A stretch of 64,000 bases of DNA from a virus. A model generated the notes under the pieces. That model ran no database searches, was not told the DNA's origin, and worked only from the letters and a program-made list of their open reading frames with translations. Below, piece by piece: positions 16,501 through 45,755 of the stretch; position 1 is the stretch's first letter; every line of letters begins with the position of its first letter. Both the position numbers and the translations under genes were made by a program. The stretch covers positions 36,503-100,502 of IMG/VR virus record IMGVR_UViG_3300008113_004623; one strand, given 5' to 3'.

Positions 16501-19500
16501 AACGCGATGCCTCTGGTGCTAACTTGTTTGAAGCAAGTCTCCGAGAACTAGATATTAATAAAGCTATTACTGATTATAATATTTATGAATTAGTAAAGTT
16601 ATCTTCTCGACTAGATCAAAACAAGGATCATGTTGACAGTGCTTTTGCAGAGAATTTAAACGAAGAATTGTTAAATGCTCAAGCACAGATTATAGAAAAT
16701 ATACAAAAACTACAGGGAGATCAAAAAATACAAGCTTTAGCTAAGATTATGGATCAAACTGTAAAGTTTAATACATTTACTTATTTTGACCAAAAAGCAT
16801 TTAGTGAATTTATTACAAGTTATACTTATGGCTTAGATTCAGAAACAAACGAAGAAGTAGAGCAGACTATGACTGTTTCTATTACTCCAGAAGAATTTGA
16901 AAAAGTAAGAGCCGAAGTTATTCGGATGCGTGGTATACGTAAGAGTAACTCAATGGCAGCCACTGGTCGTGTAGATAATGTTAGTGTACCAACTGAAAGC
17001 GAAGAGCAAGAAGATGCTATGCGTACATTAGCTCGTAATGTTGCTGCAGCATCTAGTGAGTTAGATGATGATGGTTTTTCTGAAAAATCTGCTTTAGAAA
17101 AACAATACACTGATTCCTTCTTAAAAAACAAAGAAGTAACAGAAGCAGTTCAAGCTTTAAAAGATAGAGTATTTTCTTTATTTAACGAAGGCAGCGCACG
17201 TGCAGCATCTGTTCTAAACGCATTTAATACCTTACTAACAAATAAAGATACTATTTCTTTTGACGCACAGCTTCAGCAAGTAAAACAAGCTCTTAAAGCT
17301 GAAATTGATGCACTACGAAATGTAGATAAAAACTCTAAATCTGCCAGAGCACTAGAGGGAGTTTTGCTAGAACTAGATTTGTGGACTAAGGCAGCAAAGA
17401 AAATGGTTATTCAAAATCCTGCTGCTAATTTAGGTGACTTAACTAATTTAGAACCTAGCAGAACAAATGTTGTTGATCTTCAAAATGATGTTTTGGAGGA
17501 AGAGTTTGGGGACGAGTTAACGCCAGCACAAGTTCAAACTAAACAATCTGAGATTGACCAACTGAATCAAGAAGCTCAACGTAGACGTTCTCGTCTACTA
17601 GACTTAACTAGTCCAGCTAGAAGTAATGGAATAGAAGTAACTCCAGATAATGTCATAGTAACAGATCCTGCAGTAAAACGTAGAGTTGCATTTATTGATG
17701 CACTTTCTACGATGGCAGATACTAAAGTTAAGATTCTAAACAAACGACAGTTTTTGCGTGAGTATTTAGCTAGCAAGTATCCGCAGAAAAACCAAGCAGA
17801 CATTGAGCAAGACTTAAAGAGTCTATTAACGTTCTTTACTAATATACCTCAAGACATAGTAGACAACTGGGATACCTTAACTAATCAAGATGAAATTCTT
17901 GCTTCGGTGCATCAGTTACTAGGTAAAGAATTTTTTGATAAAGGGCAGCTTAGATACTATGTAAAGAACAAAGCTCAAGGATTACTAGTTAATCCTGAAG
18001 TTATAATGACTGCCGCAAGTAAAGACGGTAAAGTTTTATTACAGGACTCTTACCCGCTTGAGTTAAGTTTTATTCAGAATACGGGTGAAGGCAATACTAA
18101 AGAGTTTTCTACTGTACCGTGGAGATTGTCAGGACGTATACAAGGAGAATCTACAGACGTTAAAATCTTACCTGGAGATATTATTGCTGCCCATACCGAA
18201 ACTTTTGCAAGCAAAGAGTTATTACAAGAATTTTTAGGAAAGAATGATAAAAGCGTATTAGTTGACTATGAGATCAGTGAAGGGGTTCTTACTAATAAAG
18301 ATTCTTTTAGCACAATGGCAGAAGTTGAATCTTCTGATATTAAAAACGCTAGTCTTAAAGATTTTTCAATTCCAACACAGCCAGGATCTCGCGTAGCAGG
18401 CAGACGCTACAAATTTAATTTAGGTCGTTTGTACTTTAACAATAATGGTAATCCTGTTATTTTACAGAACAATAAACTTAACGAAGAGGAAATACAAGCA
18501 ATAGCTGAGTTAGTATTTAATCCTCCAACTGGAAATATTAGTATGAGCCAGTTAGATGAGGCTTTATTTGATCTAATTAACCAAATCGATAAGAACAATC
18601 GTATTGTATTCTTCCCAGCAGAGGCGCTTAATCAAATTCAAGCTGACGGTAGTTTAAAAACTTTTTACGAACAAATGTTAGTACCTTCATTAGTTCAAGA
18701 AGTTAACGGCAAACGTAAGTACCAAAAGCTCACAAAAGAACAATTCATTAAAGAGTTAGGAAACTATTACTATAAAGTAAGTCCAACTTTCTTATCTGGG
18801 GGCGCACGCTTTAACGAAAGCATTACTCGTTTCCAAATGAAAGACGGTGTTCCTGAAGTATTAAAACAGCCATACTTAGACTATATTAAAGAAACACATC
18901 AAGCTCCTATTAATAGTGAGGGAAATGTATCTACTGTAGTTAATAAGATTGTCTATCCAAGTACTACTGACTTAGCCGCACAAACTAAAGCTTTAAATCT
19001 ACAAATCAAGAACGACCAACAACTAACCAGTAAAGGAAAGACAGTAGGAGGCGTTAATCCAAATAGTAATGCCCGAAGTTTAAATCCAACTGCTCCACAG
19101 TTAAATAGAACTGCTTCAGCTACTTTGAATATGATTCCCTATGCAGAGATTAACTCTTTCTTAGCGAAGTTTGGTATTCCTGTAAAAATTGGTTACTCTG
19201 AAGAAATTTATAACCAATTAGTATTAGCAATTAAAAAAGACCCAAGTATTCTAAGCCTAGTAACTGCTCGCATCGAGAATAACCAGGTTGTTACTTCTGA
19301 GTATGATGGAGGAAATACTAAAGGAATTAACTTACTTATTGGTTCAGTAACTCTTCCTAATGGTCAAAAATATAAAGTGTTTTTTAAACCTGATGAGCAA
19401 AGCGCAGGACTGAACTTAAACATCAATAAAATTGAGGGAGGATTTACTGCAAGTGTGAAAAACACTGATGTTCCTAATCCTACTCCTTCTAATGCTCCTA

Positions 19501-20760: not shown

Positions 20761-23700
20761 ATGATTTGCCCTAATTTTAGTAATCCTAGCATAAGAAAAG
20801 ATTTTTATAATCTTGTTGGTATTGTAGGCGAAGATTTTGCCTATTACCTATGGGATAAGAATAATGGACTACCTCTTACTTTACAAGCAAATCCAGCTAA
20901 TCTTAATGAAGCAATTGCTAATCCTTTATTTGAAGCTTTGGATGAACAGTTTAATGGTAATTCTACTAAAGCTACTTTAGGAGTAGCTATTACGTTTAGT
21001 AGTGCTTTTCAGAAAAAATACGTAGGATTTAACCGAGCAACTCCTGAGCGTCAAGTACAGTTAATTAATGACTACATTAACAAGTTAGATATTACACTAG
21101 AGCAAGCAACTCAAAATTATATTAAAAGAGCAAATCAAATTAATAGAACATTTAAGAGAGCTGTTAGTGTAACACAAGAAGCTGTAACTAGAGAAGATCT
21201 TAGTAAAGACCCTAACTCAGTAATTAATCAAATTGAAGATGTTACTGCTCAAGACAGGACTGCTGCTTATGAGTTTTTAAAACGTAACAAGATTGCTCAG
21301 AATATTCGCTTTACGAATGCTCAAAAAGTAGTTAACTCAGGGGCTTATGCACAATGGACTAAACACGGTTTAACTTTATTTAAAGGCTCCGACTATACGG
21401 ACATTTATCACGAGTCTTGGCACGAGTTTACACAATGGTATCTTTCTCCGATTGAAAAAGCATTACTATACAATACTGTAAGAAATAGAGAAGGGACAGT
21501 TACTATAGGCGACTTAGAGATACCTTACTACAGTCTTACTAATAGACAAGTAGAAGAAGTACTAGCGGAAGAGTTTCGTGCTTATTCTATACAGCGTAAC
21601 AGAAACGAAGCGGTTGCTGCAGAACCTCGTATTAGAAACTTCTTTGAGAGAATGTATGATTTCTTAAAGTGGCTTTTCTTTGGTCCAGAAAAAACAAAAA
21701 AACCTGAATCTACTTTTGAGTTTGAAAATGTTTCTGCAATGTTTAGCGCTTTATATGAAGGTAACGTAGATTTATCTCGTAGAGCAGAAACAAACATAGT
21801 AGAAGATTCTTTAAATAGAAGTACAGCTTTAACCTTGCCTATCTTAACGGATGAAGGTTTACAAGAGATAGAGTTAAGCCCTTTAGTCGGTGCTGAGGTT
21901 ATAAGTTATGTAAGCTATAGTATCTATAAACAGATGCGTGATCAGAATATTGGCATGAGTCTTTTATTAAATCCTGAGCACAAAAAGAATTTAATCCCTC
22001 AATTATATACAGCAGTTAGAGCAGAGTTAAATGATGTATTAGATAACTTAGAGATAAAAATAGAACAAGCTGAAACATCTAACAACATGGCTGCTTTGGA
22101 AATGTTAGAAGACCAGTACGCTAATATAACTGCACTAGTAAACGAAGATGAAGCCTGGAACCGAGTAGTTGCCCTACATCAAAGTACAACACAAGGCGAA
22201 CTCTTTAATATAGATGCGGATGTTACTGTTTCTGTAGAAGAGAATATAGAAAACAGAATAGACGAAGCTCCTGCAGAAGAAAAAACTAGAAACGAAGTTC
22301 AATACGGGGATAAGTCAAATGTTAACCCACTTGAGTTGTATGATCCTTATGTTATTGAGTTAATTAAAAGTTTACCTGACCTAGTTAATATTAACGGCCA
22401 GGTTGTCCCTAGTACGGGCAGCACTCTTGGTTTACCAAAAAACGGAAACTTCAAACATAATAAAAATCTTCTTCAGAACATTCTATCAGGATCTACGTCT
22501 TATGAAGATGCTATTCAGCGATTAATAGAAGCTTCTTCCGTAAGTCCTCAATTAACTTATTTAATTCAATTGCTTCCTAGTCCTGTTAGTGAAACTCTAA
22601 CATTAGACGAGATTACATTAAAGAATCAGTTTATGCAGGCCTTGTCTATGCCTCGCGTAGATCCTTATTCTGTAAAAGCAATTGAAAAAACTGAAGACAC
22701 TACAGTCGATAATGTTATAACATCTAAGAAAGTTATTCAGTTTAATACTTTCTACATTAGTACACTTACCCAAGACGCACTTCTAGAGTACTTAGATAAT
22801 GAGTTCCAAATATCTGCTGCTTCTGATTTTAAATCTGAAACCGATCAATCAACTATAAAACAAAGAAGCTTTGTTAACAAAAGCATAAATGGTTTAGAGT
22901 TTGCTACATTCTCTACAGCTTCTGTATTAGACGCATATAAAGATATTGATAGCACTACTTCCTATAAGACATTATTTGAATTTATGAATGATGCTTTTGG
23001 AGTGGACTTATATCAGGGAATTAGCGAGCAATACCTATTTGATAAGCGTGGTGATATTATCATTGCTAACTCTCCATACACAGAGAGCCAATTAAACGCA
23101 CTTACGCAGGTTATTGTAGCTTCTTATAATAAGATTAAGTTATATCACTTAATTAACAATTTAGAAGGTAAGTCACCTATAATTAATAAATTAAAAAATG
23201 AAGTTCCTTCATCTGTAGAAACTCCTGCTAAGACCTATATCTCTGATGTAAAGAAAAGTTTAGTTACAGCATTAAACACTTTAAGCAATAATTTTAACAC
23301 ACTCAACGCAAAAGACCAAGAGCAGTTTAAAGAGATAGTTGATCTATTTACTAATTCTATAAAAAATAACAATAATCTCAGAACTGAAAGACAGATTCTT
23401 TTCAGAGCTATTGAAAACTATTACAATAAAGTAGTTAAGTCTGCGTCTTACTTAAACGACGAGAACAATATGGAGTGGTCTATCCGTGAGTGGCAGCATG
23501 TTGTAACCCAAGCAAGCAGTATTAATAATGCCAGAACTCTAGCTGACTTAACAGGCCATTTAAACCCAGCTACAAATAACTTTGTTGGTGTGTCTAAGTT
23601 ACTTGCAAAAGCATTTAGCCAAGAGACAGGCGAGCGTAAGTTAAACAGAGATGAAGACAATGTTCTTTTTGAGTTAGTTAATATTTCTGGATACTCTACT

Positions 23701-26700
23701 AAAGTAGAAGGGAAGAAAACAATTAACTTAAATCCTGACGATAAATTAATCCAAGATTTTATTGGGTTCTTAAAAGACGGCTTAGTTGAGAATCTTCGGT
23801 TTGGTGCAAAATCTACTAGTTTAGGAGTACGTGTAAACGGTTCTAGAAATGAAAGATTGTTCTACGACAGAAGTCGTTTTAGCTACTCAGCTGACACTGA
23901 TATAGTTAGACTAGACCCAAAGGTAATGGATACCTTTTTAGACTACTTACGTTACGAATTGAATCGTATGTTTGATGATCGTGCAGAGTCTACTGAAAAA
24001 GAGAAACGTGGATTTGATTTAATCATTTTAAAAGACATTCTGCCTAACAAGGTTCAAGAGTTTAAAGACATAATTAAAAATTCAACCCAAGATAAAGAAA
24101 CTACAGTCAACAATATCATTAATCAGATTAATACTGTTAATCGAGCAGAGTTTGATACAGCAGTTACTTTATACTTTAATGAGGAAGTAAGAGCATTCCG
24201 CACCGATTTAGAAGAGATTATTGGAGAAGGAGATGCTAAGTTTGCTGAAGTTTTTGGAACAAAAGAAAACATCAATGAAGTAATAGCCGACTATGTAACC
24301 CACTACTACACGCAACAGATTGAGTTTTTGCATTTATTTGTAGGAGATCCTTCTAACTTCCAAGTTAAAGGAGAAAACTGGCGTGAATTATTTAAACGTT
24401 TAGGTGCTTCTATTTCTCCAGGTAAACAACCTTTAATAGATTCTCAATTCTTAAATTCATTTAATAACTCACCTAATGGATATTTAGGCAGAGGACTTGA
24501 GCGTTTATACAAACAAAGTCAAAATCCTAATGCAGAAGCCCGCGTATACGATGAAAACTTTACTTACGTTCAGTATAAAGATGTAAAATCATTTACAGAA
24601 GGTCAAGCAGAAGTATATCAACGCGAGTTAATTGAAGGTTACGCTAATTGGTTATCTAGCCAAGACAAGGCTAAAAAGCCTATTGAAGCTTACAGACAAG
24701 AAGCTGCTGATATATTTAAGACTACTATAGATGGTGTTACTACTCAGAAAAAGGAAGCAGACGGTCAAGCCTATGCAACTTTAGATTTTGTAAGGTTCTA
24801 TCTAAACTCTATAGGAGAATGGACACCAAAACAAGAAGCGGCCTACCAACACGAACTAAAGGTAGCCGAAAAGATCCTAGAATATAGAGCAACTCCGACA
24901 GAAACTAAGTTAACAGAACTTAGAACTTTAATTCAAAATTCAAATGCAGGTATATTATTGTCTTTAAAGTTAGGGTACTGGGGTTCTCCAATTGATAATC
25001 CTAATTATATTACGTTAGGTAAGTACTCGGTAGCTCCTTTGATTCCGTCAACATTATTTGAAACCGATTTAGAAGATCAAATGTCAAATATGTTAATAGG
25101 TGGGGTAGACTTTATTACTTTTGATTCTGGAAATAAAATGGCTTTGCCTGTTTCTAGCTTAGATTTTTACAAAAAAGAAGGCAAGGGCAATGAAGAGCGT
25201 CTAGTTGTTAATGATATTCCTCAAAAGAATATTGTTACTTTTCCTATAAGCGGTTTACGTAGACAGCAATATATCGCGCCTAAGTTTAAAGAAGAAGCTA
25301 CTTTGTCTACACAGTTAGTAAAACTTGTATTCTCTAATTTTTATACTAATGGTGAGCTTAATGAAAACATAAGTAAAGTAGCAGGCTTACCTGAAAAGAT
25401 TGATAGATTACAAAAAGCTTTCATCAATGATTTATCAGTAATTGTAGAGAGCGAGAAAGCTAAAATCTATGCAGCTATTGGTGCAGAGTTAAAGGGTGAT
25501 AGAGTAACTAGCATTGACGCAGAAGCATTTTCTGATTGGATTAAAAAAGAATTTGACAAGAAAGATGTTCCCCAGTCTGTTTACGATTATTTAATTATTG
25601 AAAACAATAACTTTAAGTTTTCTTTAGACGTAGCTCCTCATAGAGCTTTGTTTGAAAGTGTACTTGCTTCTGCTTTATCTAAAAGAGTATTACGTCCCAA
25701 GATGTTTGGGGAAGCACTTGTGCAGGTTTCTTCTTTAGGCTTTAATCAAGCAGGAACTCGTTTTACAAACCCTACTAGAGAACAAGTAAGGAAATACGGT
25801 AACAGTGGTCTAAGAGATTATGGTCGTATTGTAAACGGCAAACATCAGCCTGCAGATATTAAAATTGCTTTTAACTCAAAAAAGTACGGTGCTTTATTAA
25901 ACTTAGATTACAAAGGTTCAAAAATTGAAACTCTTGATAGACTAAACGAAGCTTTACTAGACGATGCTTGGGTAGAACTACACTCAAATAAAATTACCTT
26001 AGTAGGTGTTCGTATTCCTGTACAGGGTTTAAACTCTATGGAACACTTTAGAGTAAGACAATTCTTACCAGAAGTTGCAGGACCAATTATTATTGTGCCT
26101 CCATCACTTGTAACTAAATCAGGATCTGACTTTGACATAGATAAATTGTTTATGTACGAGCCTGAGTTAGACTCTGAAGGTAACTTTATTGAAAGAACTC
26201 CCGAGTTTGTTAAAAATCCTAAAGCAGTATACCAGTACATTAGAGCAAAGAAAATTTTAATTACTGAGCTAAAGTCTCTTAATACTATTTTAGAGAACAA
26301 ACGCCAAGAGTTTATCAGAAACAATGGTTCAAATACTGTAGAAGCAAAAGTATACGATAGTTTGATTGCTAGTAATGGAATGTTAATTCGTCCATTAAAG
26401 AATCGCAAGAAAGAACTAACTGATGGAGAAGAGAGCACATTGTTGGATGAAGTAACCTTAGCTACATTTTCATTAAGTAAGTTTTTAGAAACTCAAAAAG
26501 ATAATCCAGAGATTAAATCTTTACAAAAAAAATTAAAAAAGACTCAGGAACTTTTGGCTTCGTTTAAAGGTTACTCTATAAAGTCTGCTAAAGCAGGTGC
26601 TTCTAATGGTTTAATTCAGACAATTAGTGAGATTTTATCTGAGCCTGCTATTATGCCGCAGTTTTTACAGCCTAACGACTCTCCTATTCTTAAACAACTA

Positions 26701-29328
26701 TCAGAAGACTATAAGAATAACTACGGAGGCGGAGGATCAACTATCACTTCTACTTCTGTATTTTCTCCAAGAACTTCTATTAAGATTTTTAGAGAGAATG
26801 CAACTGGTAAGAAAGCACTAGGTATTGACGCAAAAACCAACGCACTACATAAACTCTATCAACAAGTAGGATTACAGTATACTAACCCTATTGCAAGAAT
26901 GTACTTATTAAAATCTAATAAGACAGCGGATGGACATATTATTTTAGGCGGCTTGTATGATGCGAACAACGAGTACTTAATCTCAGATATTATTAATGAG
27001 TTTATCAACGGACACGTAGACATTGAGAAAGAGGAGTGGATTAACTTCTTTAATGCAGATAAAAACAGAACTAGCGTAATCTTACAGATGGTGCTTAGTG
27101 GTACTCCAATTAAAGATGCTGTGTTAATTGCTAACCAACCTATTGTTCAACACTTTTTAAAATCTAATAAATTAAGCGAAACTGCTCAGTTAATCGGCAT
27201 TGAGCGAAAATTTATTAGTACTTATATTGCTGAAGGATTGAGAAAAATAGGAATGAGTTCCGTGATTGTTAGATCTGGAGGAAAATTTTCTTTACAGGGT
27301 ACTATTGAAAAGATGCTTAAAGAAAACTTATTCTCTAAAGCCTTAGACAATTTATCAGAAGCTAATTTTACTCCGTCTGTTGAGAACACGAAGGCCGCTT
27401 ACAATAAAATGTTTCAAGAAGCTAATTCTAAGAATCAAGGTGATTTAGCAGCCCAACTAGTATTTCTAAGCCAATACTATGTAGCTAGTGTAATGAATGA
27501 AGAGTTATTAGACTTAACAAGCGTAGTAGACTTTAACACGGCTAGTTATAGAAACTTAAATGATTTCCACTTAATTCGTTCAACTCTGAACACTGCTAGA
27601 GAAAACTTTAACGAGAGTGCTGTTAATCAAATTCTACAAGACAGTGTGTTAGCACCTTTTAACATAACAAATGAAGCTATGTCAATAGGTCAACAGGTAT
27701 TTGATTTAATGGGTTCTAGAGAATACCAGGATATGTTGAATAACTTTGTTAATTTCTATGGCGATTTCTGGACTCCTGATCAACGAGTAACTGAAGTTAA
27801 TAACTTTAACAATGCAATTGTTCACGCATTAATACAAAGGTACTCTGAACTAGACGGTGAAGATTTTTATACTAAGTTTGGTCCTAAATCTAACTTCTTA
27901 ACTAAAGGAGCTACGGGTAACTTATTCGCAGAATATATAACTTTATTTGGGAGAGGATCTAAAGTAGCAGATGCTAACTTAAAATCTTTTGTTAAGAAGA
28001 ATCTATTTTTAAGAAACTTCCGTAAGAAGGATGTAGAAAAGACTAAGAAGTTTTATATTGCTACATTAGATAATGAAAAAGACGTTGTGTTTACAAATGA
28101 AATGCAGAAGTCTTTCACTGATGGATTATTCTATGATAAATCTACGCCAGAAATTAATGAGCGTGTTCAGAAGTTCTTTAGTAATTTAGCAAACGCTACA
28201 ATTGTAGGACAAGGTTTCTCTATTAAGTTTAGAAGTATTCACCCATACTTACCTATACAGGCATTAGATAGCTCTGTTAGAGCATCTTTAGAACTTCGTA
28301 GAATTAAGGGAGTCCTCTTTACTGAGGAAGCCCAAGAGAAGCGCCTTAAAGAAGATGCAGAGTTACAACAAAACATGATTGATTTACTCTCATTTATTAA
28401 AGACGTTGAAAAGATATACGCTCGTAATACATACTCAAAGCGTGTAAAGTCTTTAAACTACTGGAAATTCTTCCCTGATTATGTAAATGCTACTAAGAGT
28501 TCAGGTATTCGTATTTCTTCTAAAGGCAAAAAACTAAATGCTGCTTTATCTTTAAATACTGCAGAAGCACTGAAAGAGAAACGCATCTCTGGCGATTATA
28601 AAATTGAGTTTAGAGGTAAACAATACGCAGATGCAGGAAAAGCTTACGATGCGTTTAAAACTGTTTACGCAGTAGCAGGGGCTGAGAATGAAGAAAATAT
28701 ATCTAAGGCACGTTTGTTACGCGAAATTTTTGCAACTCGTTTCCGTCAACACTTAAATTTATTTGGTGCAGTATACAATAAAGGCGGTGCAGACTTTTTG
28801 CTTAAATCTTCTTACAATGAAGGTGATGATTTCTTAAAAACAAATACTACTTCTGTAGGCGCTTATGTTCAATCACTAGCAGATGCTTATAATGATGTAG
28901 AAGATGAGATGCTATCACAATGGCTTGAGTTTTCTGAAAAACAAAAGAACGAAGATCAACCAGCAGAAATTGAAGACAGTACTGCATTTGAACCCTCTGA
29001 AGATAACAACAAAAACAAAGCATTGTATAACGAGGAGGGCGGAGTAGACTTTGATGACTTAGGCAATATGACTGCTCCTGGAATGAAGTTAAATTCTACC
29101 ACACCAAAGAAAGCTAACAAAGAAGCTCCTTCTACTATAAGTACTCCAATCTTTAGTATTAAGTTACCAGATCGTGTACTTGATGTAAGTTATGCTCAAG
29201 CGACTCCAGAGTTTTTGTCTACACAAATTCCAACATTAACTCAAGAACAGCTTCAAGGTTTATCTAATCATATTAGAGAGAAGTTACAGGAGGATAACCC
29301 TAATATAGATTTTAGTTCGGAATGCTAA
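20761..29328 (+). CDS. Giant virion RNA polymerase protein with N-terminal zincin domain
   Basis: This protein has 2855 residues. The segment GVRIPVQGLNSMEHFRV followed by SGSDFDIDKLFMY puts a DFDID motif at D1790-D1794. This is the metal-binding motif of the crAss-like phage RNA polymerase (phi14:2 gp66), a relative of the QDE-1-like two-barrel polymerases, where three Asp hold catalytic Mg2+. In phi14:2 the enzyme is packaged and transcribes early genes after injection. Here an N-terminal HESWH zincin motif (217-221) with a downstream VLAEEF (267-272) supplies a candidate zinc protease that could process this or neighbouring polypeptides. It has its own promoter. It is longer than the roughly 2200 residues I recall for phi14:2 gp66, consistent with an added N-terminal module. 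Confidence 0.9.
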   Translation: MICPNFSNPSIRKDFYNLVGIVGEDFAYYLWDKNNGLPLTLQANPANLNEAIANPLFEALDEQFNGNSTKATLGVAITFSSAFQKKYVGFNRATPERQVQLINDYINKLDITLEQATQNYIKRANQINRTFKRAVSVTQEAVTREDLSKDPNSVINQIEDVTAQDRTAAYEFLKRNKIAQNIRFTNAQKVVNSGAYAQWTKHGLTLFKGSDYTDIYHESWHEFTQWYLSPIEKALLYNTVRNREGTVTIGDLEIPYYSLTNRQVEEVLAEEFRAYSIQRNRNEAVAAEPRIRNFFERMYDFLKWLFFGPEKTKKPESTFEFENVSAMFSALYEGNVDLSRRAETNIVEDSLNRSTALTLPILTDEGLQEIELSPLVGAEVISYVSYSIYKQMRDQNIGMSLLLNPEHKKNLIPQLYTAVRAELNDVLDNLEIKIEQAETSNNMAALEMLEDQYANITALVNEDEAWNRVVALHQSTTQGELFNIDADVTVSVEENIENRIDEAPAEEKTRNEVQYGDKSNVNPLELYDPYVIELIKSLPDLVNINGQVVPSTGSTLGLPKNGNFKHNKNLLQNILSGSTSYEDAIQRLIEASSVSPQLTYLIQLLPSPVSETLTLDEITLKNQFMQALSMPRVDPYSVKAIEKTEDTTVDNVITSKKVIQFNTFYISTLTQDALLEYLDNEFQISAASDFKSETDQSTIKQRSFVNKSINGLEFATFSTASVLDAYKDIDSTTSYKTLFEFMNDAFGVDLYQGISEQYLFDKRGDIIIANSPYTESQLNALTQVIVASYNKIKLYHLINNLEGKSPIINKLKNEVPSSVETPAKTYISDVKKSLVTALNTLSNNFNTLNAKDQEQFKEIVDLFTNSIKNNNNLRTERQILFRAIENYYNKVVKSASYLNDENNMEWSIREWQHVVTQASSINNARTLADLTGHLNPATNNFVGVSKLLAKAFSQETGERKLNRDEDNVLFELVNISGYSTKVEGKKTINLNPDDKLIQDFIGFLKDGLVENLRFGAKSTSLGVRVNGSRNERLFYDRSRFSYSADTDIVRLDPKVMDTFLDYLRYELNRMFDDRAESTEKEKRGFDLIILKDILPNKVQEFKDIIKNSTQDKETTVNNIINQINTVNRAEFDTAVTLYFNEEVRAFRTDLEEIIGEGDAKFAEVFGTKENINEVIADYVTHYYTQQIEFLHLFVGDPSNFQVKGENWRELFKRLGASISPGKQPLIDSQFLNSFNNSPNGYLGRGLERLYKQSQNPNAEARVYDENFTYVQYKDVKSFTEGQAEVYQRELIEGYANWLSSQDKAKKPIEAYRQEAADIFKTTIDGVTTQKKEADGQAYATLDFVRFYLNSIGEWTPKQEAAYQHELKVAEKILEYRATPTETKLTELRTLIQNSNAGILLSLKLGYWGSPIDNPNYITLGKYSVAPLIPSTLFETDLEDQMSNMLIGGVDFITFDSGNKMALPVSSLDFYKKEGKGNEERLVVNDIPQKNIVTFPISGLRRQQYIAPKFKEEATLSTQLVKLVFSNFYTNGELNENISKVAGLPEKIDRLQKAFINDLSVIVESEKAKIYAAIGAELKGDRVTSIDAEAFSDWIKKEFDKKDVPQSVYDYLIIENNNFKFSLDVAPHRALFESVLASALSKRVLRPKMFGEALVQVSSLGFNQAGTRFTNPTREQVRKYGNSGLRDYGRIVNGKHQPADIKIAFNSKKYGALLNLDYKGSKIETLDRLNEALLDDAWVELHSNKITLVGVRIPVQGLNSMEHFRVRQFLPEVAGPIIIVPPSLVTKSGSDFDIDKLFMYEPELDSEGNFIERTPEFVKNPKAVYQYIRAKKILITELKSLNTILENKRQEFIRNNGSNTVEAKVYDSLIASNGMLIRPLKNRKKELTDGEESTLLDEVTLATFSLSKFLETQKDNPEIKSLQKKLKKTQELLASFKGYSIKSAKAGASNGLIQTISEILSEPAIMPQFLQPNDSPILKQLSEDYKNNYGGGGSTITSTSVFSPRTSIKIFRENATGKKALGIDAKTNALHKLYQQVGLQYTNPIARMYLLKSNKTADGHIILGGLYDANNEYLISDIINEFINGHVDIEKEEWINFFNADKNRTSVILQMVLSGTPIKDAVLIANQPIVQHFLKSNKLSETAQLIGIERKFISTYIAEGLRKIGMSSVIVRSGGKFSLQGTIEKMLKENLFSKALDNLSEANFTPSVENTKAAYNKMFQEANSKNQGDLAAQLVFLSQYYVASVMNEELLDLTSVVDFNTASYRNLNDFHLIRSTLNTARENFNESAVNQILQDSVLAPFNITNEAMSIGQQVFDLMGSREYQDMLNNFVNFYGDFWTPDQRVTEVNNFNNAIVHALIQRYSELDGEDFYTKFGPKSNFLTKGATGNLFAEYITLFGRGSKVADANLKSFVKKNLFLRNFRKKDVEKTKKFYIATLDNEKDVVFTNEMQKSFTDGLFYDKSTPEINERVQKFFSNLANATIVGQGFSIKFRSIHPYLPIQALDSSVRASLELRRIKGVLFTEEAQEKRLKEDAELQQNMIDLLSFIKDVEKIYARNTYSKRVKSLNYWKFFPDYVNATKSSGIRISSKGKKLNAALSLNTAEALKEKRISGDYKIEFRGKQYADAGKAYDAFKTVYAVAGAENEENISKARLLREIFATRFRQHLNLFGAVYNKGGADFLLKSSYNEGDDFLKTNTTSVGAYVQSLADAYNDVEDEMLSQWLEFSEKQKNEDQPAEIEDSTAFEPSEDNNKNKALYNEEGGVDFDDLGNMTAPGMKLNSTTPKKANKEAPSTISTPIFSIKLPDRVLDVSYAQATPEFLSTQIPTLTQEQLQGLSNHIREKLQEDNPNIDFSSEC

Positions 29329-30181: not shown

Positions 30182-33100
30182 GTGGTAGAAATAGAAGTAT
30201 TTCCTACTTTAGCAGAAGCCACTGAATTTTCTGAACGAAATTCTGGTTGGGAACCATTAACGGAATCTGTAAAACAAAATAAGTTAAAAGAGCTTAATAA
30301 CGCTTTAGTTACTACTGAAGAATTTGATACTGTTTTAACAAATAACGATGCTGGTGAGAGAACTATTTACATTGTAAATCAAGCTGAACAAATCCACATA
30401 CTAGGAAACAAACAAGATATAGAAGGATTTAAAAAGTTTGTAGAGCAGGAAGAACTTCCTGATACTTTTAGTGAAAGGACATGGAATACTAATAATAATC
30501 TAAGCACAGACTTTATTGAACCTCGTATTTCCGACTTAGCTGAAGAGTTTGACTTAGAGATTGTGCCTGGTCTAGTAGATCAAATTAATTTGATCCAAGA
30601 CTTTTATGACTCAAAGAACATTCATTTAGGTACAAACTTAAACTTATTACAAGCTAAAGATATTATTAAAGATGCGCAAGACTTAGGTTTGTCTTTAGAG
30701 TTGGAGGTAATTAATCCTGAAGAACAACCTTCAGATAGAATCTATCGTGTATATCCAGTAAATCCAACTCAAGCGAATAACGAGGCAGTCAATAATTTTA
30801 TTTATGAACAACTAAGTGCTTACTATGAACAAGTAGGTGCGCCCAATGCGTTAAACACAGTTTCTAATTATGTAGATGTAACAAACCCTACTTTAGTGGG
30901 GATGCTTAAAAACATTCTTAATGATCCTAGTACTACTCAGTTTGAAAAGGACATTATGAATACTATGCTGACTCTCTTAAAGCAGTTTCCCGAAATTAAC
31001 GTAAACTTCAGCAAAGACTTAATGTTATCTGAATTAAATCCCGATAACTTAGTTCCAGCAAGATACGACGCAAAGACTAACACTATTACGTTATATACAG
31101 GTCCTTTATCTAATTATAATTCAGGGCAGTTTAAGCACATTTTAATGCACGAGTTAACACATGCTTTGTTTTTCTCTACATTAAAAAACCCACAGACACA
31201 AGCAGAGAAAGTATTTGCATCAGAGATAAAACGTATTTATGAATACTACAAGGCTAAATTTCCGAACGCGGCTTATGTAGGAGAATTTTACGGACTAACT
31301 AATGAGCATGAGTTTTTATCCGAGTTCTTTAGTAATCCAGAGTTTCGTTCTATTTTAGAAAAAGAAGCACCTGTAGTACACGGATCTATTTATCAATCTG
31401 TCTTAAACTTTTTTAAGAAGTTGTTTAATCAATTTTTGACAAACAAGAACAGACAAGATACCCAATACTTAACCGATTTAACTAAGTATTTTTTTAACAA
31501 TGTTCTAAGTTCAAAGATTAATACGTCAGGAGTTTATACTTCTGAAGATGCTTTTAACTATGAAGTAACTGATCAAGTGTATAACGATTTCTTAAAGAGT
31601 ATTCCAGGAAAAAATTCTTTTGATAAATTCTATGGTGCATTAGACAGTTTGCTTAATAATCCTAAAATTAACTGGCAGTCTATATTTAAGCACGCTAAGG
31701 CTACAGGTATTCAGCTTAAAGTTCTAACTGACTCCGTAGATGTTTTACAAAACATAGAAGTAGGCGCACTTACAAGAAGCGATTTAAAAACTTCGTTTAA
31801 GGCCGTTATGACACACTTATCAGATACACATACTTTTTTGCGTAATCTGAAAAGTAGTTTGAGTGAATTAGAGAAGAACCAGTCTTTACCTGAACATACA
31901 TTATTTAGCAGAGCGTATCATGCAAAAAACATAGGACAACACTACAAGAAATACATTGAAGACTTTAAAAGTCTAATGGATAATCCTAGTAGCTCAAGTC
32001 CAATGGGTAGATATATTTACAGCATTGAGGCCATTTCTACAGAATTAATTGGGGGATTTGACAGCATTGCGGCTCCCGCTATTGCTTCTAAGTTTGCTGA
32101 TTATTTTTGGGAACAAACAAACCAACTAAGAAAAGAAATAACTGCAAGGATACAAGACCTAACTAATAAGTTAGAAACTGCTAATAGAGCAGGTAATACT
32201 AAAAAAGCCCAAGTTCTTCAGAAAGAACTAACTAAAGAAACAGAAAGACTTAAAGCTATTGCCACTAAACAAAACCTAGAACAAGCTTTAAAGGGAGTCT
32301 TAGTAAATGGAGATAGCAAGAGTACTCTTGGTTCTAGACTAGGTGCTTTCATTGAATCTGCTGCATTAAGTGGGGATTTAATTGAGGGTAGTTTAGCAGG
32401 TTTTGTAGATGACCTACACTCAAAGGCTACAGAAGAAGCATTAGTTTTAGAGAAAAGAATGAAGTCTTTGTCTACAAGACTACAAAATCATTTAGAAGCA
32501 CAAGGTAAGAGAGCTGTTACTTCTTTAGGATTTGGTGATATTTTTGGTAAGTATATTCGTAGAGTCACTGTTAAAGAGATTAAACGCGTAAATGGCGTAT
32601 TAGAGTTATCTGAAAGAGATACTTATGTTCTTCAAACAGAGATGGATGAGGTATCTTACTTGAATCGACATAACGAACTACGATATGAAATCTTAAAGTT
32701 AGAAAACAAAGAGAATAAAACCGAAGATGATTTAAAGCAATTAGAACGGTTAATCGACAACTTAGCAGATTTTGAAGAACAAAATCTTGAAAGTTTGTAT
32801 ACTGAAGAATATCATCGTATTCAAAATATATTATCTGAACCTGCACGTAAAGCCCGAGAAGAGATTATTAACCAGATGCGTCAAATTCAGGTTAATGCTA
32901 CACAGGGTGATCAAACCGATGAAGACTTAGATAGATTAGAAGATTTAAAGACTCAACTAGATGAGTTGGAGAATCCATTTGGTAAGACTCCTGAACAGCA
33001 AGAAATTGCTTACAATATTCAACAGTGGAAACAAGAACGTAGAAATGCTAACTTATATGTTTATAAACTGACCGAAACCAATCGTGCAATCTTTAATGAT

Positions 33101-36100
33101 TTCTTCGACGCAAAGAAAGCAAAAGTAAGAGAAGCCGAATTAAGTTTAGCAAATCTACTAGGCATAGCAAATGCTGAATCTAATCCAAACCTAGCTGAAG
33201 AAATTTCTCAAGCACTCCAAACTAATACATCAGACCGCGTAGAACTTGCAAAAGAAATACTTCGTTTAGCTCAAGCTGACTTAGCTAAGTTTAAAAGAAA
33301 CAACGTAGTTAAAAAGGTTAAGCCAGAGTTTTACGAACTACGTAACTCTATCTTAGAGGGAATTGAGAACATTCAAAGTAAGTACAGGACTGAGATGGGC
33401 GGTGTAGAAGCTATTAGTGAACTATACCAAGAGTTATTTACCTTATTAAAACCCTACAAGAACCAAAACGGAGAGTATGTAGGATCAAAAGCGCCTACTG
33501 AGTTAGTAGAGTATGTTACTGAAGACGGTGAGGTAGTACAAATTAACGTAGCGACACGAGTTAAGGACATAGAAAATCGTATTGACCGTATTCGTGATGT
33601 AATGAGCGAAGGTGTACGTATGTCTAAAGTAGACAAAGATAACTTGTTTGCTTTATTTGATGAACTAAAGAACATTCAAACAAAAACTACTACTGAAGAT
33701 TATAAAAAGGTAGTCGCTGTAGAACAAGCTAAAGCTCGTACAGCAGTTATTTCTGAGCTAGGAGAGGCGTACAAGGATTTAACAAATCAACAACTACAAC
33801 GTGCTATACTTAAAAAGTATAGAGCCTCTGAGTGGTATAAGCAAAATCATAGAGATTTTAAACCTACAGGGGAAGGAACTCCACTATTTCATTGGAGGGT
33901 TACTTTACCTACTAACCCTAATTTTATTTCCGAAGAAGAGCCTTCTTTCCGTTGGTACACTATTGAAGTAAACGACGCCACTGATCCTAATACGGGTAAG
34001 CCTCTATACATTAATAAAGACGTACAAAACTTTAGATATAGTAAACGAGTACCTTTAAAGCGCACTAGCGGATTTAGAAACTCTGAATATCAAACATTAG
34101 ATTCTGTTGAGAAAGAAATTATCAGTGAAGTAGTAAGTATTTTAGGAGAGTTAGAGGATGGCTTACCTACTAAATTAAAGTTAGGAACTGAATTACCTGC
34201 TTATATGAAGACAGGATTAGAAAGTCTTAATGGAAAAGTAGGCAATCTAAAAGACCAAATTACAAGTGTTGCAAGTAATTTGTGGGATAGAGCCACTGGT
34301 AAAGACCAGGAAGATCCTACAGATAAAGTTTCTTTATTAGATAAACTGAACCCTAATAAGTCAGAGTTAAACAAGTACAGTGATAGAATACATTTAAAGT
34401 ATTTAACTCCAATAGAAGCGGATAAAATGAGCATTAACTTCTTTGAGTCTATTACTCAGTTTGGAGCAGATGCTTTACGCTTTAAAAACTTGTACGAAAA
34501 TATGGCTTATATCTTTGGAACTAGGGACTTAGTAACAAAGAATTTAGGCGGAACCGTAACTGAGAGCGTAGTAAATAATATTATTGAGCGTAAGGTAAAT
34601 GGAAAATCTCGCGTATCGCTTACAGGTAATCCTATTTTAAATGCTATTGGCTACATGAGTGATAAACTAATTGTAGGACTTACAGCTAAGGCTACTTTAT
34701 CTGTTAACTTACCTTCAGCAGTTAAAAACTTTACCGCAGGTAGTTATAACATATATACTCAAGCAGGAAGATTTGGTATTAACAGACAAGATATAGCAGT
34801 AGGAAAATCAAAAGCAGCTATGCACTTGCGAGATTTTTATAGAGCTAGTGTAGAAGATGGTGTGTCTACTCCTTATATTCAAAAGGTTAGATACTTTAAT
34901 ATTATGCCAGAAGATCATTTAAACGAAGTTGGTAAAAAAATGTATCGTACTTCTTTAGATAAAACGGCTAATTACAATCCATTGAGGATGTATGCTTTTA
35001 CTAGACAGGCTTTAGAATTTGAGATGCGTGTAGGAGTAGCAGAAGCTTTATCTAAACAACACCTTATAGAACTTAATAACGGACAGTTTATTCCTATTAT
35101 GGAAGCCTATACCTCTGTAGGGGGAGTATTGGTGCCTCGTGCTGACATAAAAGACTTAGCAGGATTCTCAAATCAAGAAAGTTACTTTAAAGGTAGATTA
35201 AACTTAATTAACAGTTTAATTCATGGTGCTTATGGTGCAATGGACAAAGCTGAATATCAGCGTTATGCTATTGGTCGTTTTATAATGATGATGCGTAACT
35301 GGTTTGGTTATCAGTGGTTAAGCAGATTTGGCTCACGTAGAATGTCTATTAGAGCAGGTATGGAGTTCGAGGGCATGTACAGAACCTTATGGAATGTATT
35401 AGGTTACAAGGGTAAGTTTTGGCAGTTGATGAGTTATTCAGCTACTTCAGATCTACTAAGCAATAGAGAGAAAGAAAATCTTAAAGGTGTTATGTTTGAT
35501 ACTTTAGGAATTTCTGTTATGATGGGTCTTTCTCACCTTATCAGCCAAGCTGTGTACTCCGACGATGACGATGATGTAGATAATCCAATGGCTTATTTAA
35601 TGTTATATAATCTTCTTTACTTAGAAGATGAATTAAATACATTACATCCTGTTTTTGGTCCTGCAGCTATTGCTTATTCTCGTATCGAAAATAAAGTAAG
35701 TGGAGACAACTTTGCTACCTATTACTTTAAAAAATACTTTACAGAGCCTTTCCGCGTATCTCAAGATATAGGAAGGGCTATGTATGAATATTCTCCTTTC
35801 GGAGATTTAGGAATGTTTGATGAGTATGTGCCTTTAAGCAAGAACGGTAAAGTAATGAATCCTAATCGTTACAAACCAGATCCTTTCTTACAAGGTATGC
35901 CTGATATCCTTGCCCGTACTCTTAAATTGTTTGCTTTAGATAAATCTGTAAACTATATAATAGGAAACCAAGAGTTTATGTATCGCAAGTACGATTACTT
36001 AAATCCTAAATATTTTACTGATTCTTATGAAAAAGAATTACGTCAGGCAAAAAGAGGACAGCGTTCAAATAAACTTGAGATTAAAGCAATCAAAGAAGAG

Positions 36101-36244
36101 ATAAAGTTAATTGAAGATCCAGATACTAAAGAGTTGTTGTATGAAAAAATAGAACGCCTCGAGGCCGAAATAGAAAGAGATAAAGAAGCACAAGAAATTT
36201 TAGAGCAGAACTACTCTGATTACACAGGAGCTGATAGAAGATAA
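30182..36244 (+). CDS. Giant packaged-type protein with HELTH zincin domain
   Basis: There are 2020 residues from a GTG at 30182, but the frame is open from 29942, and the extra upstream residues (VFYVSTDKREAKGYA) look like part of an ART-like domain. The start given is therefore only nominal. A zincin motif HELTH is at 323-327, with NEHEFLSEF (374-382) providing the third ligand, probably E377, as in gluzincin-like proteases. Residues about 630-1000 are long, charged coiled-coil helices. A hydrophobic region with a DDDDDVD stretch lies around 1776-1805. The C-terminus is a Glu/Lys coiled coil. It sits directly after the RNA polymerase gene and is probably part of the same injected complex. 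Confidence 0.7.
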   Translation: MVEIEVFPTLAEATEFSERNSGWEPLTESVKQNKLKELNNALVTTEEFDTVLTNNDAGERTIYIVNQAEQIHILGNKQDIEGFKKFVEQEELPDTFSERTWNTNNNLSTDFIEPRISDLAEEFDLEIVPGLVDQINLIQDFYDSKNIHLGTNLNLLQAKDIIKDAQDLGLSLELEVINPEEQPSDRIYRVYPVNPTQANNEAVNNFIYEQLSAYYEQVGAPNALNTVSNYVDVTNPTLVGMLKNILNDPSTTQFEKDIMNTMLTLLKQFPEINVNFSKDLMLSELNPDNLVPARYDAKTNTITLYTGPLSNYNSGQFKHILMHELTHALFFSTLKNPQTQAEKVFASEIKRIYEYYKAKFPNAAYVGEFYGLTNEHEFLSEFFSNPEFRSILEKEAPVVHGSIYQSVLNFFKKLFNQFLTNKNRQDTQYLTDLTKYFFNNVLSSKINTSGVYTSEDAFNYEVTDQVYNDFLKSIPGKNSFDKFYGALDSLLNNPKINWQSIFKHAKATGIQLKVLTDSVDVLQNIEVGALTRSDLKTSFKAVMTHLSDTHTFLRNLKSSLSELEKNQSLPEHTLFSRAYHAKNIGQHYKKYIEDFKSLMDNPSSSSPMGRYIYSIEAISTELIGGFDSIAAPAIASKFADYFWEQTNQLRKEITARIQDLTNKLETANRAGNTKKAQVLQKELTKETERLKAIATKQNLEQALKGVLVNGDSKSTLGSRLGAFIESAALSGDLIEGSLAGFVDDLHSKATEEALVLEKRMKSLSTRLQNHLEAQGKRAVTSLGFGDIFGKYIRRVTVKEIKRVNGVLELSERDTYVLQTEMDEVSYLNRHNELRYEILKLENKENKTEDDLKQLERLIDNLADFEEQNLESLYTEEYHRIQNILSEPARKAREEIINQMRQIQVNATQGDQTDEDLDRLEDLKTQLDELENPFGKTPEQQEIAYNIQQWKQERRNANLYVYKLTETNRAIFNDFFDAKKAKVREAELSLANLLGIANAESNPNLAEEISQALQTNTSDRVELAKEILRLAQADLAKFKRNNVVKKVKPEFYELRNSILEGIENIQSKYRTEMGGVEAISELYQELFTLLKPYKNQNGEYVGSKAPTELVEYVTEDGEVVQINVATRVKDIENRIDRIRDVMSEGVRMSKVDKDNLFALFDELKNIQTKTTTEDYKKVVAVEQAKARTAVISELGEAYKDLTNQQLQRAILKKYRASEWYKQNHRDFKPTGEGTPLFHWRVTLPTNPNFISEEEPSFRWYTIEVNDATDPNTGKPLYINKDVQNFRYSKRVPLKRTSGFRNSEYQTLDSVEKEIISEVVSILGELEDGLPTKLKLGTELPAYMKTGLESLNGKVGNLKDQITSVASNLWDRATGKDQEDPTDKVSLLDKLNPNKSELNKYSDRIHLKYLTPIEADKMSINFFESITQFGADALRFKNLYENMAYIFGTRDLVTKNLGGTVTESVVNNIIERKVNGKSRVSLTGNPILNAIGYMSDKLIVGLTAKATLSVNLPSAVKNFTAGSYNIYTQAGRFGINRQDIAVGKSKAAMHLRDFYRASVEDGVSTPYIQKVRYFNIMPEDHLNEVGKKMYRTSLDKTANYNPLRMYAFTRQALEFEMRVGVAEALSKQHLIELNNGQFIPIMEAYTSVGGVLVPRADIKDLAGFSNQESYFKGRLNLINSLIHGAYGAMDKAEYQRYAIGRFIMMMRNWFGYQWLSRFGSRRMSIRAGMEFEGMYRTLWNVLGYKGKFWQLMSYSATSDLLSNREKENLKGVMFDTLGISVMMGLSHLISQAVYSDDDDDVDNPMAYLMLYNLLYLEDELNTLHPVFGPAAIAYSRIENKVSGDNFATYYFKKYFTEPFRVSQDIGRAMYEYSPFGDLGMFDEYVPLSKNGKVMNPNRYKPDPFLQGMPDILARTLKLFALDKSVNYIIGNQEFMYRKYDYLNPKYFTDSYEKELRQAKRGQRSNKLEIKAIKEEIKLIEDPDTKELLYEKIERLEAEIERDKEAQEILEQNYSDYTGADRR

Positions 36245-38762: not shown

Positions 38763-39026
38763 ATGACTATTCAAGAACTAGAGTTAGAGATCAATAAGTT
38801 TTTTCTCGACTCAGAAAAAGACTCAGAAGGTACAGGTACTCGAAAGATAGGCACTTATCCTAATGCTGTAATAATGAACAGCACACATTACAAGAACTTT
38901 TTAAAAGAACTGTTCCACGCAGAAGATAACGTAGAGATTCCTGAAGGAGTCTTTATTGCTTCTATCTGCGGTTTAAAAGTTCTTTTTTCTGAAGAAATTG
39001 AAACACCTAGAGTAATTAAAATGTAA
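38763..39026 (+). CDS. Small conserved-type protein, unknown
   Basis: This is an 87-residue protein from the ATG at 38763, chosen because an earlier start at 38694 would lie mostly inside the preceding gene. It is acidic, with a helix (QELELEINKFFLD) and then strands (YPNAVIMN, GVFIASICGLKVLFSEEI). It is the last rightward protein gene, and its stop codon overlaps the promoter of the tmRNA. No family recognised. Confidence 0.6.
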   Translation: MTIQELELEINKFFLDSEKDSEGTGTRKIGTYPNAVIMNSTHYKNFLKELFHAEDNVEIPEGVFIASICGLKVLFSEEIETPRVIKM

Positions 39027-39033
39027 ATTTGTA
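39024..39033 (+). promoter_or_regulatory. Promoter of the tmRNA
   Basis: TAAATTTGTA fits the Bacteroidota -7 consensus TAnnTTTG. Its G is 11 bases before the mature 5' end of the tmRNA, leaving a short leader for RNase P to remove. Confidence 0.65.
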
Positions 39034-39041
39034 CATCAATC

Positions 39042-39387
39042 GGGGATAACAGGAATCGACAGGATTGATTGGGTTTAATGCTCACGCAGAGAGATGGTAC
39101 TGTTCTCTATAATCACGTATCAAACTAATTAAACGGCAACGTAGAATTATCTGACATGACTTTTGAAGATGCAGTTGAGTTCGTGAACGAATATCAAATG
39201 GCAGCCTAAGTCACGGGGAGTCATCCCCTGGAACAGAAAATGACAAGTTAAGGTTCTTGGACCTAAACCAAGTGGTGGAATCTGACTTCGGTCAACCCTA
39301 CGGTGCAGAGCTTGCTCAGTACTAAGCGTGTAAACAGCATTAGATTGCAACTTTCTCTGGACGAGGGTTCAATTCCCTCTATCTCCA
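39042..39387 (+). ncRNA. ssrA: Transfer-messenger RNA (tmRNA, ssrA)
   Basis: The 5' half starts GGGGATA and the 3' end reads TATCTCC plus A (39380-39387). These pair as a seven-base acceptor stem with a G-U at the third pair, the alanine identity signal. The 3' T-arm is GAGGG-TTCAATT-CCCTC (39363-39379), preceded by the conserved GGACG block. The 5' side has the typical ATCGACAGG. Between them is an internal reading frame ending GCAGCCTAA and GC-rich hairpins such as GGGGAGTCATCCCC, consistent with pseudoknots. It would charge with alanine, rescue ribosomes with SmpB and tag peptides. CCA is not fully encoded (ACA follows the stem). It sits where the two transcription arms converge. Confidence 0.93.
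39135..39209 (+). other. tmRNA tag-peptide reading frame
   Basis: Reading from a GGC resume codon at 39135 gives a 24-residue tag that starts GNVELSD, contains an acidic, aromatic middle, and ends EYQMAA before TAA (39207-39209). The terminal AA is the usual protease signal. Resumption at AAC 39132 would add one residue. The frame is closed by TAA at 39126. Confidence 0.75.
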
Positions 39388-39390
39388 CAA

Positions 39391-39426
39391 AAAAAAGAAA
39401 CCCAGCCTATTAAGACTGGGTTTTCT
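39391..39426. terminator. Bidirectional terminator between convergent arms
   Basis: AAACCCAG (39398-39405) pairs with CTGGGTTT (39416-39423) across a ten-base loop. T-rich sequence follows on the plus strand and an A run precedes it, giving a T run on the minus strand. It ends both the tmRNA transcript and the leftward operon. Confidence 0.8.
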
Positions 39427-40846: not shown

Positions 40847-41268
40847 AAATGGTAGCGATAAATTTCTTTTGAATAATCTAATTCAAAGTTAAAGTTAACT
40901 ATTGGTAAAACACTCAACGCAGCTGTAGAAAAATCATCAAAGTTATTCTGTTTGAATTGTTGATAATCTTGGATATAAGCTTTGCCTATTTTAAACACCA
41001 ACATCCTACGATTTTCTTCTATGTCGTAAAAATCTTGGAAGCTTTTAAAATCAGTAATTTTCCTTTCTAAAGAGTCATAATACTTATTTTTTGAATTGAA
41101 TAAGAAGAACATGCAATCTTTATACTTTCCTGACTGACCGTAATCATCTAGATAGATGTTTATTAAGCCAGCACTAACCAACGGACCTAAGCTATTGCTT
41201 GAAAAAACAAAGCCGCATAAAAGCTTAGCCGTTAGATTCAGATCTTTCACTTCTGTATTCGTACTCAT
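40834..41268 (-). CDS. Unknown protein
   Basis: This protein has 144 residues. Alternating helices and aromatic-rich strands (NIYLDDYGQSGKYKDCMFFLF, RRMLVFKIGKAYIQDYQQF) recall a family of small phage proteins with a conserved Y-Y-D-Y-Y/vMyvfk-like region, but I have no name or function for it. The start overlaps the upstream stop (TGATG) and its own stop overlaps the deaminase start. Confidence 0.6.
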   Translation of the reverse strand: MSTNTEVKDLNLTAKLLCGFVFSSNSLGPLVSAGLINIYLDDYGQSGKYKDCMFFLFNSKNKYYDSLERKITDFKSFQDFYDIEENRRMLVFKIGKAYIQDYQQFKQNNFDDFSTAALSVLPIVNFNFELDYSKEIYRYHLCTN

Positions 41269-42245
41269 CAGATTTTAGGCAAAGTTATATCTCTGACACC
41301 ATTATTCAAATAGTCTTCCATACGATAATCCCATAGGTCATTTTCTGTATGCCACTTAACCCTATCTATGGCTTGTTTAAAGCCCTCGTATTCAACTGTA
41401 ATCTTCTTACCACCTACTTCTCCAAACTTTAATACTTCGTCTGGTACGCGGAAAACTAGGGGGTTTTCTGGCTTGGTTTGGTTAACTACAATAAACTTGA
41501 AGTCACCAAGTGTTTCGCATTCAAACTTGTCTAACATAGTTTTTAATCCATAACTATAGAAAGCTGCTTGAATATCATAACGTAAAGACCAGAAATTACC
41601 TATCCAAGAATTTAATCTATAACTAGTAGTCTTAATGTCTACAGGATAAAGAGTTTTGGTTTCTTTATCTATAATTACTAAATCGATTAGACCCTTGCAG
41701 TCAGTACCTTCATACGTAAAATAGATAGGAACTTGGTAACGAACTTCATAACGTTCAGTATTACGGAAATACTTTGCAGTAAACTTGTGCGTTAATAAAG
41801 TTTCTTTAGCTACTTGAATCTGCGTAAACTGTATTGGAGTGATAACGGTTTTGTTTTCTCCGTCTATTAAATCATAAAAGTACGCAGCACCTTCAGTCTC
41901 AAATCTTTGTTTTACTTTTTCAAAAGTGTCGCGTTTGAATCCCGCTTCTTGATAAGCAATTTCTTCTGCATCTGGATTACTTCTGTGTACAAATAAACTC
42001 CATACATAATCACCCATTTGTCCTGTAGGTCTTTCTACAGTACCGATGTGGAATTGTTCAAAGAATACGTCTTCATTTTGTGTTAGGAGAATATCTACAC
42101 CATCTCCTATAATCATGTTAACTTTAGGTTCGTCAAACTCGCTGTCTGAACTATCTTCTAGATAGTTAGAAGGGTCAATTAAAATCTTCTTCAGCTTACT
42201 TTGGCTGAGAGCGTTACTTTGTAAATATTTTTCGTCGGTAATCAT
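41268..42245 (-). CDS. RecB-like PD-(D/E)XK exonuclease
   Basis: This protein has 325 residues. GLIDLVIID (D188) and VDIKTTS (D203-I-K205), followed by YDIQAAFYSYG (Q226), give the complete PD-(D/E)XK core of a RecB/YqaJ/Cas4-like exonuclease. It starts ITDEKYLQSNALSQSKLKKI, a pattern common in phage exonucleases that act with an annealing protein. Sak4- and SSB-type genes elsewhere in the arm could be partners in recombination-dependent replication. Confidence 0.85.
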   Translation of the reverse strand: MITDEKYLQSNALSQSKLKKILIDPSNYLEDSSDSEFDEPKVNMIIGDGVDILLTQNEDVFFEQFHIGTVERPTGQMGDYVWSLFVHRSNPDAEEIAYQEAGFKRDTFEKVKQRFETEGAAYFYDLIDGENKTVITPIQFTQIQVAKETLLTHKFTAKYFRNTERYEVRYQVPIYFTYEGTDCKGLIDLVIIDKETKTLYPVDIKTTSYRLNSWIGNFWSLRYDIQAAFYSYGLKTMLDKFECETLGDFKFIVVNQTKPENPLVFRVPDEVLKFGEVGGKKITVEYEGFKQAIDRVKWHTENDLWDYRMEDYLNNGVRDITLPKI

Positions 42246-45747: not shown

Positions 45748-45755
45748 CAAATATA
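45748..45755 (-). promoter_or_regulatory. Bacteroidota-type -7 promoter close to a start codon
   Basis: On the minus strand TATATTTG is followed by ACTT and then the ATG of the HNH gene (45743). A transcription start 4-5 bases past the motif would fall at or next to the ATG, giving a nearly leaderless mRNA. Confidence 0.55.

Follow-up and report, generated by a model that had tools for sequence, protein, structure and literature searches.

Trans-translation comprises the alanylation of tmRNA, its SmpB-dependent entry, the addition of a peptide tag and release. Phage tmRNAs have been catalogued for years, and we know of no function that sets them apart from the host copy. They were described in mycobacteriophages and Bacillus phage G in a 2014 survey (PMC4131195), and huge phages carry both tmRNA and SmpB (PMC7162821). 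A lengthened ssrA tag has been reported from Mesoplasma florum, an organism without ClpXP, where it is read by Lon (PMC8138137, PMC9382460). As a class of RNA, phage tmRNA is already known, and it is the long-tag variant that is new. Our literature search, which covered few subscription papers, returned no description of a long-tag family shared among phages, and the family described below is likely to be new.

To place the present locus among these systems, we analyzed a window of 64,000 nucleotides, bases 36503-100502 of the 100,502-base IMG/VR virus record IMGVR_UViG_3300008113_004623. The preliminary description of this DNA had read a complete ssrA gene at 39042-39387 and proposed ARAGORN and the Rfam tmRNA model as checks; both bear this out. 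The only gene that ARAGORN called in the whole window was a tmRNA at 39042-39388 (+), and Rfam model RF00023 matched 39042-39390 over its full length (1-374), scoring 84 bits (gathering cut-off 47, E 4e-31), the alignment being of low confidence mid-model, where the pseudoknots lie (mean posterior 0.55). The structural elements named from the sequence, namely a G-U third acceptor pair, a T arm and the GGACG block, can all be seen. GGGGATA pairs with TATCTCC in an acceptor stem that includes the alanine-type G3-U70 wobble, and neither the GGACG block nor the T arm is disrupted (GGACG-GAGGG-TTCAATT-CCCTC). The CCA tail is not encoded, the 3' sequence being TCCACAA. A tag frame with a resume codon after TTAAAC and a stop codon is also present; it had been mentioned just in passing, and its length of 24 residues is the unusual part. 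Overall, the locus is a complete one-piece phage-encoded tmRNA (Table 1).

Table 1. Features at and around the tmRNA gene, in window coordinates
Feature	Position	Strand	Basis or remark
Final gene of the + arm, 110 aa	38694..39026	+	No family match; homologues flank the site in L003-L008 and L548
TAAATTTG, Bacteroidota-type -7 promoter motif (TAnnTTTG)	39024..39031	+	Overlaps the stop codon of the upstream ORF
One-piece tmRNA (ssrA) gene	39042..39388	+	ARAGORN and RF00023; kept in L002, L003, L004, L523 and L548, with compensatory stem changes
Acceptor stem 5' half GGGGATA, with G3 of the G3-U70 pair	39042..39048	+	Sequence, covariation
Tag frame GGC...GCC TAA, GNVELSDMTFEDAVEFVNEYQMAA (24 aa)	39135..39209	+	ARAGORN, gene positions 94-168
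VELSDMTFEDAVEFV, stretch within the 24-aa tag			
GGACG block, T arm, acceptor 3' half, discriminator A	39358..39387	+	RF00023, sequence, covariation
Terminator hairpin for both converging arms	39398..39423	+	A run before, T-rich stretch after
Final gene of the - arm, 107 aa	39447..39770	-	No family match; homologues flank the site in L003-L008 and L548

As first described, the gene lies where the two transcription arms converge, between a + gene ending at 39026 and a - gene ending at 39447. The motif of the proposed -7 promoter is also present upstream of it. Ten bases separate TAAATTTG from the RNA start, and TAnnTTTG is conserved in L003 (TAACTTTG) and L004 despite different flanks. Across the whole window TAnnTTTG occurs at chance level (83 seen, 84 expected), and we rejected a window-wide enrichment; the enrichment is found only upstream of gene starts, where the 90 bases before them contain 12 copies against a mean of 2.2, the highest count among 840 permutations of the motif. 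This enrichment makes a phage with a Bacteroidota-type promoter and a Bacteroidota host plausible on sequence grounds. TATATTTG motifs also lie directly upstream of other gene starts or arms (window positions 8988, 20738, 29338 and 36271 on the + strand; 45748-45755 and 63916-63923 on the - strand), and these sites are consistent with Bacteroidota-type promoters. Downstream, the predicted bidirectional terminator corresponds to the hairpin listed in Table 1 (-14.3 kcal/mol, z -4.2), which is identical in four of four copies. The suggestion that the tmRNA serves the translation of giant mRNAs found no support; the gene has its own promoter motif and terminator. The giant ORFs themselves (13554-20702, 20761-29328 and 30182-36244) encode 2382, 2855 and 2020 aa and have hardly any family matches.

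We retrieved relatives of the locus through the exonuclease gene at 41268-42245. The tmRNA is present in the three with exonucleases of 86-100% identity (L002, L003 and L004) and absent from four syntenic relatives at 46-55% identity (L005-L008). In L008 the two flanking genes lie about 78 bases apart with no tmRNA between them, and in L005-L007 the site is occupied by 1.7-2.9 kb of other genes. The insert in these last three consists of a 206-aa ORF and a second ORF of 115-642 aa between the flanking genes. A further locus, L548, was retrieved by its tag (GNVEKSSMTFEDAISFVNEYEMAA) and is syntenic with the window. Together these loci indicate presence and absence of the tmRNA at one site within one phage lineage, and the absence from syntenic relatives agrees with the earlier remark that it is not familiar as a standard crAss-like gene. 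Where present, the tmRNA is almost invariant across copies, with diverged flanks. Among L523, L548, L507, L576 and L569, GAGGG/CCCTC of the T stem is replaced by GGGGC/GCCCC, GGCGG/CCGCC, GTCGG/CCGAC and GTGGG/CCCAC, and the acceptor-stem positions likewise change jointly, always as pairs, with G3-U retained; the covariation looked for across related phages is therefore found in both stems. In the copy of the 114-kb relative L003 (L003:13383-13753), 22 bases are inserted within the pseudoknot region and the discriminator is T instead of A (TCCTC), and charging may suffer, to judge from the sequence. A group I intron match (RF00028, 70 bits) is found elsewhere in that record, at L003:2291-2545.

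tmRNA genes are frequent attachment sites, and many viral contigs in our pattern scan carry a short host-type tag near the contig end, as for ssrA prophages. The locus might accordingly be read as a scar of integration, a fragment of host ssrA left by recombination. However, the gene is complete rather than a 3' piece and its tag is not of the host type. We rejected this reading, to which hardly any probability attaches, given that L003, L004 and L548 have conserved phage genes on either side of the tmRNA, that the relatives without it keep these genes too, and that the stems covary.

With regard to the affiliation of the phage, its DNA polymerase is 35-40% identical to those of Crassvirales members over 95% of its length and 48% identical to that of Leptolyngbya phage Lbo-JY46, and PHROG searches returned portal and head hits. 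The major capsid protein matched no named Crassvirales record at E 1e-5, and neither a DNA-level search nor tblastn with the tag found any named phage relative. No named DNA polymerase is closer than that of Lbo-JY46, a phage whose recorded source is a cyanobacterium; the polymerase is interrupted by a LAGLIDADG endonuclease gene, and the tmRNA search of this phage gave only a partial match below threshold.

The tag of the window tmRNA combines a host-like ...AA end with an inserted conserved stretch, ELSxMTFEDAxxFV, whose residues resemble those of an N-capped amphipathic helix. It is the same in L002-L004, and it had no match in PDB, Pfam or PHROG. A degenerate DNA pattern encoding the tag core TFEDAxxFV matched at least 119 stretches of viral contigs. 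Of all loci fetched, 101, nearly all of them viral tmRNAs, encode a homologous tag that has the expected length and ends in A, and most of these are also tmRNA calls by ARAGORN. Their consensus is (D/A)(V/E)ELS[ST][MFW]TFEDAM[AS]FVGADYAVAA, and the window tag has the features by which we define this TFEDA family ([LIK]S[STDEA][MFWY]TFEDA..FV, a final A and a resume frame). Where the search pattern left codons free, synonymous changes make up 55% of the single-base differences compared with 27% expected, and codon differences fall at the third position 2944 times against 942 and 478 at the other two. This mostly synonymous variation indicates that the tag is selected as a peptide. The residue preceding the T of TFEDA is M, F or W, with Y also seen in relatives; as M is not conserved there, no internal start codon is available and the peptide could come only from the resume frame. 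An independent small ORF beginning MTFEDAVEF was rejected on the same replacement of the Met by F, W or Y.

Conservation of the frame also bears on the idea that the RNA is chiefly a decoy, which titrates SmpB or occupies ribosomes and so inhibits host trans-translation, the tag mattering little. There is a precedent in phage DS6A, whose tmRNA fragment extends barely beyond the tRNA-like domain, a similar molecule being inhibitory to tmRNA (PMC4131195). A decoy, however, needs no conserved tag frame with resume codon and stop, whereas the present frame is conserved as protein sequence; we hold this explanation to be very improbable.

Other long tags were seen beside the TFEDA family. Looser cousins occur in L090 (GNTNVDLSDYTVESLFAELEGELALA), L117 (...VELSEYTIDSLLAELSGAELELA) and L675 (AEDISDFTYEDAMALVGTPVEELV), and separate long-tag families are represented by L149, L585, L640 and L641 (NAQIEANMNKVFSLL..EEVAVAA), by L109, L663 and L684 (VxEGDAILASIFGEVAIAA), by L210 and L606 (EDxMSIPT...EAELxxAA) and by L119, L227, L243 and L252 (GNTNFWSLVNESVNAPVTEELLAA). 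Cellulophaga phage phi40:1 has an unannotated tmRNA, and in Cellulophaga phage Calle_1 ARAGORN places the tmRNA 52 bases upstream of the annotated position; both likely encode the 30-residue tag GNNTNAVNAQIEANMEAVNAILNLEVAVGV, if translation resumes at GGA AAC.

The ends of these tags are relevant to the possibility that the tag is protective, with the phage tmRNA competing with the host tmRNA and adding a tag that ClpXP reads poorly, sparing truncated phage proteins or protease capacity. Some phage tags indeed have no ALAA-type end, namely those of cr50_1 (...TAIGA), the Cellulophaga phages (...VAVGV), L675 (...EELV) and L557 (...MVHA). In contrast, the small hydrophobic ...AA end that would be expected to serve ClpX is found in the window tag and in most tags of its family, and protection seems to us a doubtful account of the locus.

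We next compared these tags with those of potential hosts. RF00023 matched 170 of 178 Bacteroidota genomes, and we read 92 host tmRNA loci (the top 30 and a selection from further down the ranking), 89 of which were called by ARAGORN. In 87 of the 89 the tag has 9-10 residues with a small-residue AA end (for example GENNYALAA, ANDYSYAMAA and DNNYSYRLAA), and none of the 87 reaches 15 aa; the remaining two, L435 and L439, are odd calls that are probably ARAGORN misreadings. The DNA pattern for the tag core occurred in none of 396 Bacteroidota genomes, a tag-peptide search of the 396 gave nothing credible, and an exact TLD pattern had no match in the genome contigs of the host search. A second scan of genome contigs had the host form of the tag built into its pattern and was left out of the tag-length counts. 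Among viruses, two scans that used tRNA-like-domain patterns and were independent of the tag found long tags in at least 16 of 32 and at least 10 of 44 one-piece tmRNAs, and an earlier viral scan, of mostly enterobacterial prophages, in at least 6 of 88; these fractions vary with the scan pattern chosen and the counts are lower bounds. Long tags are in addition undercounted where ARAGORN misplaces the tag start (as in L140, L197, L209 and L117). That many viruses have the long tag and the sampled Bacteroidota lack it suggests, at the level of sequence, that phages have remodelled a bacterial clean-up signal to serve their own ends.

The long tag extends across phages as well. Most other long-tag records tested (95-294 kb) had no match to the DNA polymerase of the window phage, although that of L548 does match, indicating that the tag is shared beyond one phage lineage. 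When we built a tree of 179 tmRNAs with the tag region left out, 3 changes sufficed to explain the host and phage labels, compared with about 60 after shuffling; this tree was quick, has some long branches, includes only Bacteroidota hosts and serves as supporting evidence only. These results weigh on the simplest account of the gene, in which a captured host ssrA sustains rescue while host RNA is degraded; the long tag would then be due to neutral drift or to the history of the lineage, and ClpXP would degrade it as it does the host tag. Such a supplement would fit the complete tmRNA fold and the host-like ...[AV][VLMI]AA ends that most tags retain. It does not readily account for an insert under selection as a peptide, common to phages without the window phage's DNA polymerase and encoded in none of the sampled Bacteroidota, nor for the position of the phage tmRNAs outside the sampled host tmRNAs on the tree, and we consider it rather unlikely.

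A search for SmpB (PF01668) found no match in the window phage record or in G002, and matches in 3 of the 34 records searched, those of L505, L516 and L119. With SmpB in just these three, most long-tag tmRNAs must use the SmpB of the host. The three SmpB genes (L694, L695 and L696) lie in phage records of 134, 271 and 294 kb that also have long-tag tmRNAs.

The reading that we favor is that of a working phage tmRNA with a phage-specific 24-residue tag, whose insert would change the protease route; drawing on sequence and analogy, we give this explanation as a whole about an even chance (roughly 0.5). The tmRNA would be expressed during infection from the promoter upstream of it, undergo maturation and CCA addition by host enzymes, and be charged with alanine. 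Host SmpB and EF-Tu would then bring it to ribosomes stalled on broken or degraded mRNAs, and these would be freed with addition of the 24-residue tag instead of the 9-10 residue tag of the host. We infer that ELSxMTFEDAxxFV may form an additional recognition site, to be bound by an adaptor or by a different AAA+ protease, and that tagged fragments may exit by a route still open in the infected cell. By analogy, the extended tag probably sends its products to a protease route unlike that of the short host tag. Of the two roles initially suggested, redirection of host quality control appears better supported than rescue on giant mRNAs, because the tag is unlike the sampled host tags and is common to phages. 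A broader version is conceivable, with odds somewhat short of even: the extended tag of unrelated phages may hold its own targeting element (for another protease, an adaptor or a phage partner) that overrides the short-tag ClpXP pathway of the host, such that phages would rewrite trans-translation at the tag and not at the RNA.

The tag described here is long, conserved as a peptide and common in viral tmRNAs, and none of the Bacteroidota genomes tested has it. A defined peptide of 24 residues also offers a handle, as a reporter fusion could directly reveal the protease and its partners. Should the insert change the protease, it would represent a natural degron switch; should it prevent degradation, phages would have a means of shielding their own proteins.

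Compared with the one-piece tmRNAs of RF00023, the locus is alike in its full-length match, G3-U acceptor, GGACG block, T arm, resume frame and stop, and differs in its 24-aa tag with an insert in place of 9-10 aa, in the CCA that is not encoded and in having no SmpB match. Bacteroidota chromosomal tmRNAs are likewise one-piece, with similar ends and tags ending in ...MAA or ...LAA, but their tags have 9-10 aa and their RNAs are at most about 70% identical to that of the window. Among the phage ssrA genes described so far (in Bacillus phage G, in mycobacteriophages Bxz1, Cali, Wildcat and others, and in huge phages), the likeness is that of a complete phage-encoded tmRNA (PMC4131195, PMC7162821). 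The tmRNA of Bacillus phage G was confirmed in the present analysis, and its 13-aa tag, AKLNITNNELQVA, is unrelated to the window tag; the mycobacteriophage tmRNAs are compared here by their published descriptions. Nor is tmRNA without precedent in crAss-like phages, as SsrA is annotated in the Crassvirales members cr114_1 and cr50_1. The [ST]-D-aromatic-T core of their tags (GNFYVTDYTRIAA and GNNFVTDYTAIGA) resembles S-D-M-T of the window tag, whereas these tags have only 13 aa and ARAGORN calls the genes as permuted two-piece tmRNAs. These lie at L133:2953-3395 (cr114_1) and L138:2940-3435 (cr50_1), and the cr114_1 spacer contains a tRNA-His(gtg). The likeness to Mesoplasma florum mf-ssrA is one of tag length, with no homology to the phage tag claimed: there, too, a lengthened tag replaces the short ClpXP tag, and the accompanying change of protease is documented (PMC8138137, PMC9382460).
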